From NCBI GenBank assembly GCA_039636865.1, contig CP144172.1:434001-498000 (forward strand): 64,000 nt of DNA, in the 5' to 3' direction. Numbering within the stretch: the first letter of the stretch is position 1; every line of letters begins with the position of its first letter. The notes beneath the pieces were generated by a model. The model worked only from the letters and a program-made list of their open reading frames with translations, was not told the DNA's origin and ran no database searches. Of the stretch, positions 12,070 through 17,548 are shown piece after piece. The DNA comes from Dermatophilaceae bacterium Sec6.4 (lineage in GTDB: Bacteria; Actinomycetota; Actinomycetes; Actinomycetales; Dermatophilaceae). The translations under genes and the position numbers were made by a program.

Positions 12070-13256
12070 ATGTCGGGAAAGGCGACACCCTGGGCGGCCG
12101 CTACCGGTTGGACGACCGGATCGCAGCCGGCGGGATGGGCGTGGTCTGGACCGCCACCGACGCCATCCTGGGGCGTACCGTCGCGGTCAAAGTACTGACC
12201 GGCGGACTCACCGACGATATCGGCTTCGAACACCGCTTCCGCACCGAGGCGCGGCTGGCTGCAGCGTTGACGCACGCCAATATCGCGGCCGTTCACGACT
12301 ACGGCGAGGACGAGGGCTCCGCCTACCTGGTGATGGAGTACGTCCCCGGCCTGCCGCTGTCGCGCATCATCGCGGACCGCTCCCCGATGCCCGCGGCCGA
12401 CACGGTCGGCCTGATCTCGCAGACCGCAACCGCCCTGCAGACCGCGCACCGCAGCGGTCTCGTGCATCGTGACGTCAAGCCCGCCAACGTGCTCGTAACC
12501 CCCGACGGGATCGTCAAACTCACCGATTTCGGTATCGCGCGTGCCGTTGGGTCGGCAGCGATGACCAAGACCGGTGAGGTGATGGGCACCGCACAGTACC
12601 TCGCTCCCGAGGCCGCACTCGGGCTCGAGACGACCCCGCTCAGCGATGTGTATGCATTGGGCGTCGTGACATACGAGATGCTCTGTGGATTCAGACCGTT
12701 CGTGGCTGACAGCCCCGTCGCGCTGGCCATGGCCCATGTCAACGAACTCCCGCCCCCGATGCCGGACTTCGTGCCCCCACCGGTGCGTGCGGTCGTCCTG
12801 GCTGCGCTGGAGAAGGACCCGAACCTACGTCCGGATTCAGCCGCCGAATTCGGCCGAGCATTGCGTCAGGCAATCGACGACAGCGCCCGGATGGGATTTG
12901 ATCCGTACCGCGAACCGCCCCGCCACCCGTCCGCAGCCGGCGGACGCCGGGTGCCCCCGCCCGCGGCGACACCCACCCCCACCCGCACGGCCCGGGCCAC
13001 TGCGGTGCCCCGCACCGCAGTGCACCATCGCGAGCAGGCAACCGGCAGTTCATCTGCGGACCCGAATGGCGGCCGGGGCCGGTCACGCCGCTTCATGCTG
13101 CTCGCTGTCGTCGCCCTGGTCATCGTGATCGGGGTCGTGGTGGCGATCGTGCTCACCCAGGGCTCCTCGCCCTCGCAACCGACGGAAAACTTCACCAAGC
13201 CCATCCAGATTGTGACGCTCGGCCACCCCGGCGCGTCGCCGAAGGAGTTCCGGTGA
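12066..13256 (+). CDS. pknA: Ser/Thr protein kinase PknA
   Basis: A 396-residue receptor-type kinase. The kinase domain (about 10-275) has the glycine-rich loop IAAGGMGVV, K42 (VAVKV), HRD at 134-136 (catalytic D136) and DFG at 154-156. A Pro/Thr/Arg-rich juxtamembrane segment is followed by one transmembrane helix (about 345-366) and only about 30 outside residues without PASTA repeats, as is usual for PknA. The GTG at 12066 overlaps the pbpA stop. The family phosphorylates cell-division and wall-synthesis proteins. Confidence 0.95.
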   Translation: MNVGKGDTLGGRYRLDDRIAAGGMGVVWTATDAILGRTVAVKVLTGGLTDDIGFEHRFRTEARLAAALTHANIAAVHDYGEDEGSAYLVMEYVPGLPLSRIIADRSPMPAADTVGLISQTATALQTAHRSGLVHRDVKPANVLVTPDGIVKLTDFGIARAVGSAAMTKTGEVMGTAQYLAPEAALGLETTPLSDVYALGVVTYEMLCGFRPFVADSPVALAMAHVNELPPPMPDFVPPPVRAVVLAALEKDPNLRPDSAAEFGRALRQAIDDSARMGFDPYREPPRHPSAAGGRRVPPPAATPTPTRTARATAVPRTAVHHREQATGSSSADPNGGRGRSRRFMLLAVVALVIVIGVVVAIVLTQGSSPSQPTENFTKPIQIVTLGHPGASPKEFR

Positions 13257-15106
13257 CCGACACCCCCCGCATCCTCGGCGGTCGTTACGAGGTCGGTGAG
13301 CTCATCGGTCGTGGCGGTATGGCCGAGGTCCACCTCGGCCACGACACGCGTCTGGGACGCACCGTTGCCATCAAGATGCTGCGCTCGGACCTGGCCCGCG
13401 ACTCTTCGTTCATCACCCGGTTCCGCCGTGAGGCGCAGTCCGCCGCTGGCCTGAACCACCACGCGATCGTGGCCGTCTACGACTCCGGTGAGGATGTCTT
13501 CCTGGAGACCGGCGGGGCCCGCATCGACGTGCCCTACATCGTCATGGAGTACATCGAAGGCGAGACGTTGCGCGAAATCCTCGACGAGGAGGGCAAACTG
13601 GCCCCCGACGAGGCCGCGCGGATCGCGATGGGCATCCTGTCGGCACTGGACTACTCCCACGAAAAGGGCATCGTCCACCGTGACATCAAACCAGCCAACG
13701 TGATGCTGACCCGGGGCGGCAGCGTCAAGGTGATGGACTTCGGCATCGCCCGCGCGATGGCCGACACCGGCGCGACCATGACCTCGGCGCAGGCCGTCGT
13801 CGGGACGGCGCGTTACCTGTCACCGGAGCAGGCACAGGGCGAAACCGTCGACGCCCGCTCCGATCTGTACTCCGCCGGGTGCGTCCTGTTCGAGCTGCTG
13901 AGCGGTCGTACGCCGTTCGTCGGCGAGCCGGTCAGCCTGGTCTACCAGCACATCACCGATCCACCGAAGGCTCCATCGGTGTACGAGCCGTCGGTGCCGC
14001 CCTCGATGGACGCGGTGACCCTGCACTCCCTGGAGAAGCCGCGTGAGGGCCGCTACCAACAGGCGGCGGATTTCCGGGCGGACCTGCAGCGGGCACGCAC
14101 GGGCGAACCGCTCAGTGCGGCGGCGGCAGCAACGCTCAGCAACCGTGACGTCGGCGACCGTCAGCCGCAGGCAGTCCCGGCAACGCAGCGACACGACCAC
14201 ACGGCTGAGTACGACGGATCGCAGTCACCACCTCGGCGGACCGCCATCTGGATCGCTGCGATCGTGGCGCTGTTGCTCGCCATCCTCGGCATCGGATACG
14301 TGGTGTCGCAGAATTCACCCGGCACCAAGTCGGTGAAGGTGACCAGTGTCCTCTACCTGCAGCAGGGGGCCGCCGAGTCGGCGTTGCGGGCCGACAATTT
14401 CGGGGTCCTGGTCCGCAACGTCACCAATGACGCCACCGTCGGCGAGGTCGTGAAGCAGACTCCCGTCGCAGGTGCGGACGCGCCATCTGGCAGCACGGTG
14501 ACCATCGACGTGTCCAGTGGTCCGGACTCCCGGCAGATACCCAGCGTCGCCGGACAGAGCGTGGCGGATGCCACCCAGATGCTGAAGAACGCCGGCTTCC
14601 TCAACGTCGTTCCCAGCCCGCAGAAGGTCTCAGACACCCAGTACGCCGATGGGCAGGTCGCCAGCACCACGCCGGCGGCGACCAATTCCACCGCACCGAA
14701 AACGCAGATCGTGCTCAACGTCAGCGACGGTCAGGTCACCGTGCCGACCGATCTCAAGGGCAAGACCAGCGCCGCTGCGCAGACCGAGCTACGCGCAAAA
14801 TTCCTGTACTCCTCGATCCAGAACGTCGAAACATCCGACTCCAGCCTGGTGGGCAAGGTCGTCAAGGTCGACAACGCCGGGCAGAAGGTCGCGGTGAACT
14901 CGGTGATCACCCTCTCGATCGGCACACTCAAGCCCACGACCGCGACGGTGACGTCGACGTTCACGCAGCCACCGCCGACTTCCACGTCCAGCAGCCCGCC
15001 ACCGAGCAGCCCGCCACCGAGCAGCACGCCACCCAGCTCCACGAAGCCCTCCGGCTCCTCGACGTCATCCAAATCGGCGAGTCCGCCGACCGCGAACTCC
15101 GGCTGA
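13253..15106 (+). CDS. pknB: Ser/Thr protein kinase PknB with PASTA repeats
   Basis: A 617-residue receptor kinase that senses muropeptides or lipid II. The kinase domain has K41, HRD at 142-144 and DFG at 162-164, and the activation loop carries TGATMTSAQ. The transmembrane helix is at about 331-351. Three PASTA repeats follow (about 358-424, 425-493 and 494-560), one fewer than the four common in mycobacteria. A Ser/Pro/Thr-rich tail of about 55 residues closes the protein and may span the wall. The GTG shares four bases with the pknA stop. It is the last gene of the operon and converges with the DUF429 fusion, with 8 bp between stops. Confidence 0.95.
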   Translation: MTDTPRILGGRYEVGELIGRGGMAEVHLGHDTRLGRTVAIKMLRSDLARDSSFITRFRREAQSAAGLNHHAIVAVYDSGEDVFLETGGARIDVPYIVMEYIEGETLREILDEEGKLAPDEAARIAMGILSALDYSHEKGIVHRDIKPANVMLTRGGSVKVMDFGIARAMADTGATMTSAQAVVGTARYLSPEQAQGETVDARSDLYSAGCVLFELLSGRTPFVGEPVSLVYQHITDPPKAPSVYEPSVPPSMDAVTLHSLEKPREGRYQQAADFRADLQRARTGEPLSAAAAATLSNRDVGDRQPQAVPATQRHDHTAEYDGSQSPPRRTAIWIAAIVALLLAILGIGYVVSQNSPGTKSVKVTSVLYLQQGAAESALRADNFGVLVRNVTNDATVGEVVKQTPVAGADAPSGSTVTIDVSSGPDSRQIPSVAGQSVADATQMLKNAGFLNVVPSPQKVSDTQYADGQVASTTPAATNSTAPKTQIVLNVSDGQVTVPTDLKGKTSAAAQTELRAKFLYSSIQNVETSDSSLVGKVVKVDNAGQKVAVNSVITLSIGTLKPTTATVTSTFTQPPPTSTSSSPPPSSPPPSSTPPSSTKPSGSSTSSKSASPPTANSG

Positions 15107-15114
15107 AGCAGCAG

Positions 15115-16884
15115 TCAGCTCGGCACGCTGATCTTGGCCAGGCGTCGTTGCAGTCGATCGACGCGATGCTCGTTGCCGTGCAGCCGCACATACCGCTCGC
15201 CGCGGGTGAGCAGTAGCGCGTCGTCCAGGCGGCGTACGGCGCCCGCCGGATTGCGGTAGTCCATCCGGGCGTCGATTGTCGTCGCGTCGACCGCGCGGAT
15301 GGTCTCGGCCAGCTCGGCCAGCGAGGTGATGCCCAGCTCGAGCACCAGGCCGGCGATCCAGGCGTACTGCTCCGGGCGTGACCAGCTGGCGTCGGCGTAC
15401 TCCCCCGCCAGGAACGCCGCGAGTTCCTGCGGGCTGATCCGGGGATCATCGTCGGCCGTGCGCGCATCGGTCTCGCGGACACCCTCCTGCAACCGCTGGC
15501 GGATTGTGGAGAACTCCTGGTCGGCCAGCTCCAGCAGCCCGGCTGCCAGGGTAAATCGGCGGTCGAGGTCGGCTCGCTGTTCCTGCGGGATGGTGCCTTT
15601 GTAGCGGATGTCGTGCTCGAACTCCGCCCAGGCGTGCTGCAGCACTGTGCGGATCTGTACCTGGATCTGCCGATCTCCGATGCTGGGGTGAGCCGCCCGC
15701 TCATCCGGGTCCAGCAGGATCTGCAGGTGCCGACTGGAGTACCCGAAACCGCCTTCGCGGGCGGTCACTTCGCCCATGTCCCGGTCCTCGATGACCACGG
15801 CTTCAGTGGCCAGCAGTTCCGCCACCGACGCGACGTCGCTGTGTACGTAGGTGATGACCCGTAGTCCGATGACATCGCCGATCTGGGCTGTCGGGTCGGT
15901 GAAGAGTGGAACCTCGCCATTGGAACGACCGGCCTTCTCGGCGAACGACGCGATGCTCTTGGCCCGTCCGGTGACGCTCAGGTAGTTCAGCCCGGCGTCG
16001 TCCAGCACACCGACGACGATGGCCATCGCCTCCACGGCTGCACGCTGCAACTGCGGGAACACCTTGGCGTACTGCTGGGTTGCGCGACGCACCATCTCCA
16101 CCCGCGCGTCCACTGTGGCCTCGATGGTCGGGATCCGCTGCGAAGGTCGTAACCCGACCGGCAGGGTGGGCGTGACGATGTACCCGTTCGCGAAGTCGCC
16201 GTACGTGGTCGTCGCATCCGGCCGACGTTCGCGAAAGAGTGCGACGTAGGCGCAGACGACCGCGTCGACCTGATCCTCAGCCACCCGCAGCGCAGCTTTG
16301 GTGCCGGCCTGCTCGACATGGGTCACCAGCGCGCTCCATCCAGGATGCGAGACCAGGTGCAGCACGGGGCTACTGGCCGAGAGCGATTCCAACCGGCGCA
16401 TCAGGATCAGTAGCTGCTCGCGTAGCTGGGCCATCGAACGGCCCTGCTTGTTCTTGTACTTCAGGGTCCGGCCGAGCTCGAAGAGCGCCACGGTTGCTGG
16501 GTGCGGGTAGACCTCGATCCCACGATCTGCGGCGCGGGAGTCAGGGTCCATGTCCAGGCCGAGCAGGGCACATACCCGGGCTGCCCGGGTGCCGTTCGCG
16601 AACGCCGGGTTCGCCAGATTCGCCGGGTGGGCACCGGCCTGGAACGGGGCGAAGTCCCGGTTGAGGTCGCGTTCGGCAGGTCGGTTGCCCCCCTCGTTCA
16701 CCACGATCAGCGGGGCGTCGATTCCGACGAGGATGCCGCCGTCGAGGTACGGGGTGAGCGCCGCGACGATCTCCTCGTCGGTACGCACCGCGGACAGGTG
16801 CAGCAGGGAGCCGGCGTCGTCCAGGACGGCGACCCCGGTCGGACTCCTGGTGCCCCAAGCGAGGTCTAGGCCGGCGTAGTGCAT
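15115..16884 (-). CDS. DUF429 (RNase H-like) - RelA/SpoT-like fusion protein
   Basis: A 589-residue two-domain protein. Residues 1-238 match DUF429, a predicted RNase H-fold nuclease family: candidate acidic residues are D7 (AGLDLAWG), D56 (GIDAPL), E124 (IEVYPHP) and D207 (DQVDAVV). Residues 265-430 match the RelA/SpoT (p)ppGpp synthetase fold: VTGRAKS at 304-310, D337 in GDVIGLRV, GYSSRH at 381-386 and HAWAEFEHDIRYK at 417-429. A helical C-terminal part begins with AAGLLELADQEF, which belongs to the same synthetase subfamily. The usual glutamate of ExQIRT is glutamine (Q408). The ATG lies 4 nt after the pabA stop, so it is translated with pabA. Neither nuclease nor synthetase activity is proven; it could equally be a nucleotide sensor. 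Confidence 0.8.
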   Translation of the reverse strand: MHYAGLDLAWGTRSPTGVAVLDDAGSLLHLSAVRTDEEIVAALTPYLDGGILVGIDAPLIVVNEGGNRPAERDLNRDFAPFQAGAHPANLANPAFANGTRAARVCALLGLDMDPDSRAADRGIEVYPHPATVALFELGRTLKYKNKQGRSMAQLREQLLILMRRLESLSASSPVLHLVSHPGWSALVTHVEQAGTKAALRVAEDQVDAVVCAYVALFRERRPDATTTYGDFANGYIVTPTLPVGLRPSQRIPTIEATVDARVEMVRRATQQYAKVFPQLQRAAVEAMAIVVGVLDDAGLNYLSVTGRAKSIASFAEKAGRSNGEVPLFTDPTAQIGDVIGLRVITYVHSDVASVAELLATEAVVIEDRDMGEVTAREGGFGYSSRHLQILLDPDERAAHPSIGDRQIQVQIRTVLQHAWAEFEHDIRYKGTIPQEQRADLDRRFTLAAGLLELADQEFSTIRQRLQEGVRETDARTADDDPRISPQELAAFLAGEYADASWSRPEQYAWIAGLVLELGITSLAELAETIRAVDATTIDARMDYRNPAGAVRRLDDALLLTRGERYVRLHGNEHRVDRLQRRLAKISVPS

Positions 16885-16888
16885 CCGG

Positions 16889-17548
16889 TCAGCATGCCCC
16901 ACCCGCGGCTTCCTCCAGTCCGCGCACCAACGGGGCCATGCCGGCGCTACGGGCGACCGCGTCCGGCATCCCGGTGATCTCCAACCAGTTGGCCAACATC
17001 CGGTGGCCACCTTGGGTCAGCACCGATTCGGGATGGAACTGGATCCCGTGCAGCGGCAGGGTTCTGTGTCGCAGGGCCATCACGACGCCGGTATCGGTGC
17101 GGCCGTTGACGACCAGGTCGTCCGGAATCGTGCTGGGTACGACGGTCAGCGAGTGGTATCTCGTCGCACGCAGCGGCGAGGGCAGTCCGGCCATCACCCC
17201 GCTCGCGTCGTGCTGCACCTGGGAGGTCTTGCCATGCAGCAACTCCGGTGCCCGATCGACCGTGGCTCCGAAGACCACGCCCAATGCCTGGTGGCCCAGA
17301 CACACCCCGAGCATCGGTTGCGCGCGTTGGGCGCAGGCCTCGATCATCGCCATGGAGATCCCGGCTCCCTGCGGGGTGCCGGGCCCGGGAGAGATCAACA
17401 CCCCGTCGTACTGTGCGCCCTGGGCGACATCGATGCGGTCGTTGCGCACGACGGTGCACTGCGCACCGAGCTGTTCCAGATAACCGACGATCGTGAAGAC
17501 GAAACTGTCGTAGTTGTCGATCACCAGGATCCGGGTCTCGGCTGTCAT
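16889..17548 (-). CDS. pabA: Aminodeoxychorismate/anthranilate synthase glutamine amidotransferase
   Basis: A 219-residue class I glutamine amidotransferase that releases ammonia from glutamine for chorismate amination (folate or tryptophan pathway). Visible motifs are LISPGPGTPQGAG, the nucleophile loop GVCLGHQALG, and the His-Glu pair in GIQFHPES. No partner chorismate-binding subunit is nearby, so folate versus tryptophan use cannot be decided. The position beside the DUF881 gene and the pknB operon is the conserved actinobacterial one. Its start overlaps the DUF881 stop by 4 nt. Confidence 0.92.
   Translation of the reverse strand: MTAETRILVIDNYDSFVFTIVGYLEQLGAQCTVVRNDRIDVAQGAQYDGVLISPGPGTPQGAGISMAMIEACAQRAQPMLGVCLGHQALGVVFGATVDRAPELLHGKTSQVQHDASGVMAGLPSPLRATRYHSLTVVPSTIPDDLVVNGRTDTGVVMALRHRTLPLHGIQFHPESVLTQGGHRMLANWLEITGMPDAVARSAGMAPLVRGLEEAAGGAC

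Follow-up and report, generated by a model that had tools for sequence, protein, structure and literature searches.

Organization of the locus

The DNA analysed here (the window) is a stretch of 64,000 nucleotides from Dermatophilaceae bacterium Sec6.4. Its genome is placed in Allobranchiibius (Dermacoccaceae), since another genome of its genus shares the sequence found in Allobranchiibius sp. CTAmp26. The gene of interest lies at 15115-16884, where the minus strand is open over 589 codons, while the plus-strand reading is interrupted by stops. An earlier reading of this DNA, made from the sequence alone (hereafter, the sequence-only reading), had described a single 589-residue frame in this interval, and its coordinates are right; the strand is minus. 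The features of the locus, in the order of the window, are the following:

13253..15106, plus strand: pknB (Pkinase + PASTA), convergent with the fusion gene; adjoins the fusion only in Allobranchiibius among the loci searched
15115..16884, minus strand: relZ-like gene, 589 aa, with DUF429 (RNase H-like), RelA/SpoT synthetase and C-terminal domains (from the open reading frame and Pfam)
15130..15447, minus strand: C-terminal domain, residues 480-585 (VRRLDD...LL; from sequence comparison)
15475..16014, minus strand: RelA/SpoT (SAS) synthetase domain, residues 291-470 (from Pfam, structure matches and invariance)
15661..15663, minus strand: codon of Q408, which replaces the Syn4 (ExQIRT) glutamate (from alignments)
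16015..16155, minus strand: variable linker, residues 244-290 (from dN by segment)
16156..16884, minus strand: DUF429 domain, residues 1-243, with the acidic residues D7, D56, E124 and D207 (from Pfam, PADLOC and invariance)
16885..16898, minus strand: conserved upstream element at a fixed distance from the ATG, with G at -14, A at -11 and T at -7 (from 140 upstream regions)
16889..17548, minus strand: pabA/trpG (GATase); adjoins the fusion only in Allobranchiibius among the loci searched

As for the domain make-up, the N-terminal half matched Pfam DUF429 (PF04250) over residues 5-218 with 87.2 bits, against a cut-off of 23, and the following part matched RelA_SpoT over residues 306-430 with 58 bits, against a cut-off of 27, in agreement with the two domains proposed previously. 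The four acidic residues that the sequence-only reading judged to be well placed in the first domain (D7, D56, E124 and D207) are invariant in 141 aligned fusions, one row of which is without residue 7. That reading had also allowed for an assembly join of two genes; this is ruled out, because the same single frame occurs in relatives of many genera. When dN was compared between four segments, it peaked in the linker (residues 244-290) for 5 of 6 pairs; the C-terminal domain is common in part to distant stand-alone synthetases. Regarding the synthetase, its best matches among solved structures were the RelP/RelQ (YwaC/YjbM) small alarmone synthetases, with E of about 1e-14 to 1e-15, which differ from the window protein in having no nuclease half; the long Rel is the sole other RelA_SpoT match in this genome.

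PADLOC assigned the DUF429 half (16156-16884) to the phage-defence candidate PDC-S44, at 1.7e-76; this is a computational defence candidate, and its likeness to the window protein consists of the DUF429 profile match alone. A second PADLOC candidate, PDC-S33, matched the synthetase half at 9.8e-9.

Relation to RelZ

The DUF429-RelA/SpoT fusion is a known architecture, that of RelZ (MS_RHII-RSD, MSMEG_5849) of M. smegmatis. Proteins of the actRel group with an N-terminal DUF429 were reported in three mycobacteria, including M. smegmatis (Atkinson 2011, PMC3153485); a survey of the RNase H superfamily described DUF429 as RNase H-like and found it with RelA/SpoT in Actinobacteria (PMC3985635), and the RNase HII activity of MSMEG5849 was assigned to DUF429 (PMC4429107). 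No mention of DUF429 was found in PMC8285248. According to a review (PMC7591505), M. smegmatis RelZ (64.5 kDa) is a UV-induced hexamer, described as a stress enzyme, that hydrolyses RNA:DNA hybrids and R-loops and is inhibited by ssRNA and pppGpp; its halves, once separated, are reported to be non-functional. It is also reported to synthesize (pp)pGpp, with GMP as the preferred substrate (PMC7591505, PMC11345224, PMC10112252), and its activities are restated elsewhere (PMC8622095, PMC10434055, PMC11345224, PMC10112252). The earlier proposal, in which a nuclease is combined with a module for (p)ppGpp synthesis, is borne out by the domain content, and was already published as RelZ/MS_RHII-RSD; the accompanying premise, that DUF429 normally stands alone and that small alarmone synthetases usually have no such domain, misses this published group, and the fusion, which the sequence-only reading had granted might prove to be already characterised, is so, as RelZ.

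The window protein has the same domain order as RelZ and a similar size, and shares 48-56% identity over the full length with fusions of the M. smegmatis genus (including those at loci L093 and L108); kinship was measured on 62 fusions from this genus, and M. smegmatis RelZ itself is known here by its published description. In the synthetase tree, the window protein is grouped with the mycobacterial fusions. RelS of C. glutamicum was placed in the same SAS group (actRel) as the fusions by Atkinson 2011 (PMC3153485), a grouping doubted by Ruwe 2017 (PMC5566576), and, unlike the window protein, it is without the nuclease half. The window gene is very probably the Allobranchiibius member of the RelZ family (DUF429-type actRel), with a synthetase that would work without the Syn4 glutamate.

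Distribution of the fusion and of its separate halves

The sequence-only reading had called for a survey of the fusion by taxon. At full length, it was found in 13 of 58 relatives and, at E <= 1e-60, in 16 of 246 genomes of the class Actinomycetes, own genome counted in both cases; in the Mycobacterium genus (that to which Mycolicibacterium hodleri belongs), the matches listed show it for 62 of 198 genomes, one further copy is broken off by a contig end, and at least 161 of the 198 genomes have some match. All 80 loci of a biased sample, the best 80 of 440, have the full-length architecture; they come mostly from Nocardioides, and the other hosts include Flexivirga, Klenkia, Modestobacter, Georgenia, Ornithinimicrobium, Cellulomonas and Mycolicibacterium. 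Spread by mobile elements was considered and rejected: of the 16 phage and 34 plasmid records that matched, none covered 80% of the query, and the viral contigs yielded no close relative.

The halves also occur alone. Among the 246 class genomes, the best matches spanning one half were synthetase only in 7 cases and DUF429 only in 8. The stand-alone synthetases are placed among the fusions in the synthetase tree, and their union in a single clade was not rejected (AU p 0.186). The stand-alone DUF429s of the Mycobacterium genus nest among the fusions in their tree, and their placement together in a clade separate from the fusions was rejected with p 2e-5, the bootstrap being not settled. These placements suggest repeated splitting or joining of the halves, with splitting the likelier of the two; the counts do not decide the direction. 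Natural stand-alone halves sit awkwardly with the report that the isolated halves of RelZ are inactive. Genomes of the Mycobacterium genus often have the DUF429 half alone (L176-L189, L191-L195), with 49-60% identity to that of the window.

The Syn4 position of the synthetase

The Syn4 motif of RSH synthetases is ExQIRT (PMC5566576). In S. aureus RelP, Asp107 and Glu174 are the ligands of the ATP-bound Mg2+ (PMC5794853), and Glu174 is probably the Syn4 Glu, since the Asp and the Glu lie 67 residues apart both in RelP and in the aligned YjbM. E. coli RelA has the motif as VEIQIRT, with its Glu at residue 335, and RelA' E335Q has been used as a catalytically inactive control (PMC12421884, PMC4432633). 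Alignment of the window protein puts Gln408 at the place of this Glu, and the residues of the RSH ATP/GTP site (R/K/S/K, D, R, Y-x-S-x-H, QxRT, EH) are all present.

The same position is devoid of Glu in every family member read: column 408 holds 65 Q, 71 S, 4 A and 1 T in the 141 aligned fusions and Q in 8 of 8 further non-duplicate ones, which gives 73 Q, 71 S, 4 A, 1 T and no Glu over all 149 distinct fusions. The fusions of the RelZ genus have Ser in 62 of 62 cases, where the window protein has Gln, and the close stand-alone synthetases have Ser in 12 of 12. Outside the family, the Syn4 Glu is present in 45 of 45 homologues (36/36 from viral contigs, 5/5 from plasmids or phages, 4/4 distant chromosomal ones), in the long Rel of the window's own genome, and in all five RelP/RelQ-type structures aligned (2be3, three YjbM entries and 3l9d), in contrast to Gln408 of the window protein.

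Seventeen other active-site columns (4 in DUF429, 13 in the synthetase) are invariant in the 141 fusions, one gap apart; those of the synthetase are R307, K309, S313, K317, D337, R342, Y382, S384, H386, Q410, R412, E423 and H424. The synthetase domain is under purifying selection and is not decaying, as its dN/dS was 0.05-0.20 over six pairs; its dN was the lowest of the four segments in 5 of these pairs. The missing Glu lowers the claim of canonical chemistry and leaves that of kinship intact, since its absence is common to the whole family read; apart from this family-wide oddity of the active site, the window gene is an ordinary family member.

Possible chemistry without the Syn4 glutamate

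RelZ activity is cited as Mg2+-independent by Ruwe 2017 (PMC5566576), and we propose that the loss of the Syn4 Mg2+ ligand would explain it. A RelZ-family synthetase would work without the Glu that takes part in Mg2+ binding in RelP and on which RelA depends, and ATP would be kept in place by the conserved R/K/S/D set. The RelZ family, fused and stand-alone, may then be a RelA/SpoT-fold lineage free of the Syn4 Glu, in which such an active site would imply a metal-independent or re-arranged mechanism, or a different nucleotide made or bound; this proposal is tentative, with a chance that we put slightly below even. Counting against it, RelA' E335Q, the same Glu-to-Gln change as Q408 of the window, is inactive (PMC12421884, PMC4432633). 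C. glutamicum RelS, also an actRel, had its highest activity at 50 mM Mg2+, a value that does not suggest Mg2+-independence of all actRel proteins; this enzyme has all the synthetase motifs with a slight deviation in Syn4, also found in its Rel (PMC5566576). Beyond this remark on C. glutamicum, no account of Syn4 loss in RelZ was found in the literature passages, titles and abstract openings covered; the primary RelZ papers may contain one.

The alternative that survives best, itself unlikely, is that of a pseudo-enzyme: the synthetase half would bind ATP or alarmones and act as a gate on the RNase H-like half, and the alarmone synthesis reported for RelZ would be weak or an artefact. Such a role would agree with a Syn4 Glu missing in all 149 fusions, given that the Glu-to-Gln change abolishes RelA activity (PMC12421884, PMC4432633), with the tolerance of Q, S, A and T at 408, as if the role of the position were lost, and with the statement that the alarmone pool of M. 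smegmatis is mostly Rel's pppGpp (PMC10112252). However, the 13 other synthetase positions are invariant in the 141 fusions, dN is lower there than in the three other segments of the protein in 5 of 6 pairs, stand-alone synthetases with the same active site persist, and activity with a preference for GMP is reported for RelZ (PMC7591505, PMC11345224, PMC10112252).

At three loci, a RelQ-like synthetase with an intact Syn4 Glu (ELQIRT) lies tail to tail with the fusion (L045:6780-7469, L051:6752-7411 and L085:6754-7527, all on the minus strand); a second alarmone gene adjoins the fusion in just these 3 of 80 loci. The fusion and the convergent RelQ-like synthetase could possibly form an inactive/active pair.

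Genomic neighbourhood and upstream region

In the window, the end of pabA is 4 nt upstream of the fusion gene and pknB is convergent downstream, as the sequence-only reading had noted. These two genes flank the fusion in each of the three Allobranchiibius genomes (L001 and L002, which are the window's locus itself, plus L003, L004 and L032) and nowhere else among 111 loci, searched with flanks of 1.5 kb for loci from the genome search and up to 5 kb for the others. Translational coupling to pabA had been proposed from the 4-nt gap; the gap stands for the window, but it is not kept in the genus, where L032 has 174 nt and L004 has 939 nt, and the apparent coupling is thus a local arrangement and not a conserved operon. 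Between pabA and the fusion, L004:562-1500 contains an apparent extra ORF and repeated GC-rich segments, and L032 has a similar segment. A conserved partner gene was also sought and rejected, because clusters of ORFs of at least 80 aa reach at most 21 of the 80 loci, shadow ORFs included.

Regarding the region before the start codon, the upstream element reads CATGCT at -12 to -7 in the window, where it shares nucleotides with the stop codon of pabA. The combination of A at -11 and T at -7 is present in 104 of 140 fusion upstream regions (the window and 103 of 139 relatives), in counts that ignore kinship, and the next best offset for this pair from -60 on gave 26 of 140; an SD-like string was found upstream in 1 of 140 by a strict definition and in 11 of 140 by a looser one. 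These counts suggest a leaderless-promoter element. Against this reading, the element is CANNNT, with T at -12 in 1 of 140, and the canonical -10 TANNNT is not enriched at that spacing (2 of 140, against 1.74 in shuffles). A DNA-damage promoter motif of the PafBC type was found in 0 of 140 upstream regions.

The neighbours had led the sequence-only reading to tie the gene to wall growth or folate metabolism. That the fusion is a regulator linked to folate synthesis or to the cell-wall locus of pknB is very improbable: its place between pabA and pknB in the three Allobranchiibius genomes and the changed cell surface of M. smegmatis after deletion of relZ (review PMC7591505) would fit, but the same neighbours are absent from every other locus of the 111, the distance to pabA can be anything between 4 and 939 nt in this genus, and the fusion has a conserved upstream element of its own. 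The other suggestion made there, a toxSAS-type enzyme that pyrophosphorylates tRNA and is restrained either by a partner or by its own DUF429 domain, is scarcely credible in spite of the shared synthetase fold and of related SAS domains on phage, plasmid and viral-contig records, for no neighbour family of the size searched (smaller antitoxins would be missed) provides the conserved adjacent antitoxin gene of toxSAS loci, the phage, plasmid and viral-contig searches gave no near full-length or close relative, the match to CapRel is weak (E 0.01 by profile, 0.25 by single sequence), and RelZ is described as a stress enzyme (PMC7591505).

Implications for the RelZ family

In conclusion, the fusion is already explained and there is no case for a new architecture; the unexpected point is the Syn4 oddity, which is family-wide. 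If the reading of RelZ-family proteins as synthetases active without the Syn4 Glu is true, the Glu-to-Gln substitution by which RelA is deliberately inactivated exists in enzymes from nature, and the puzzle is that RelZ makes alarmones, reportedly without Mg2+, although the same change inactivates RelA. The reported dependence of the two RelZ halves on each other should be seen beside the natural occurrence of both as separate proteins. If RelZ synthesis is real, the accepted RSH mechanism would not be the sole one; if it is not, signalling by RelZ-derived pGpp would need re-examination.
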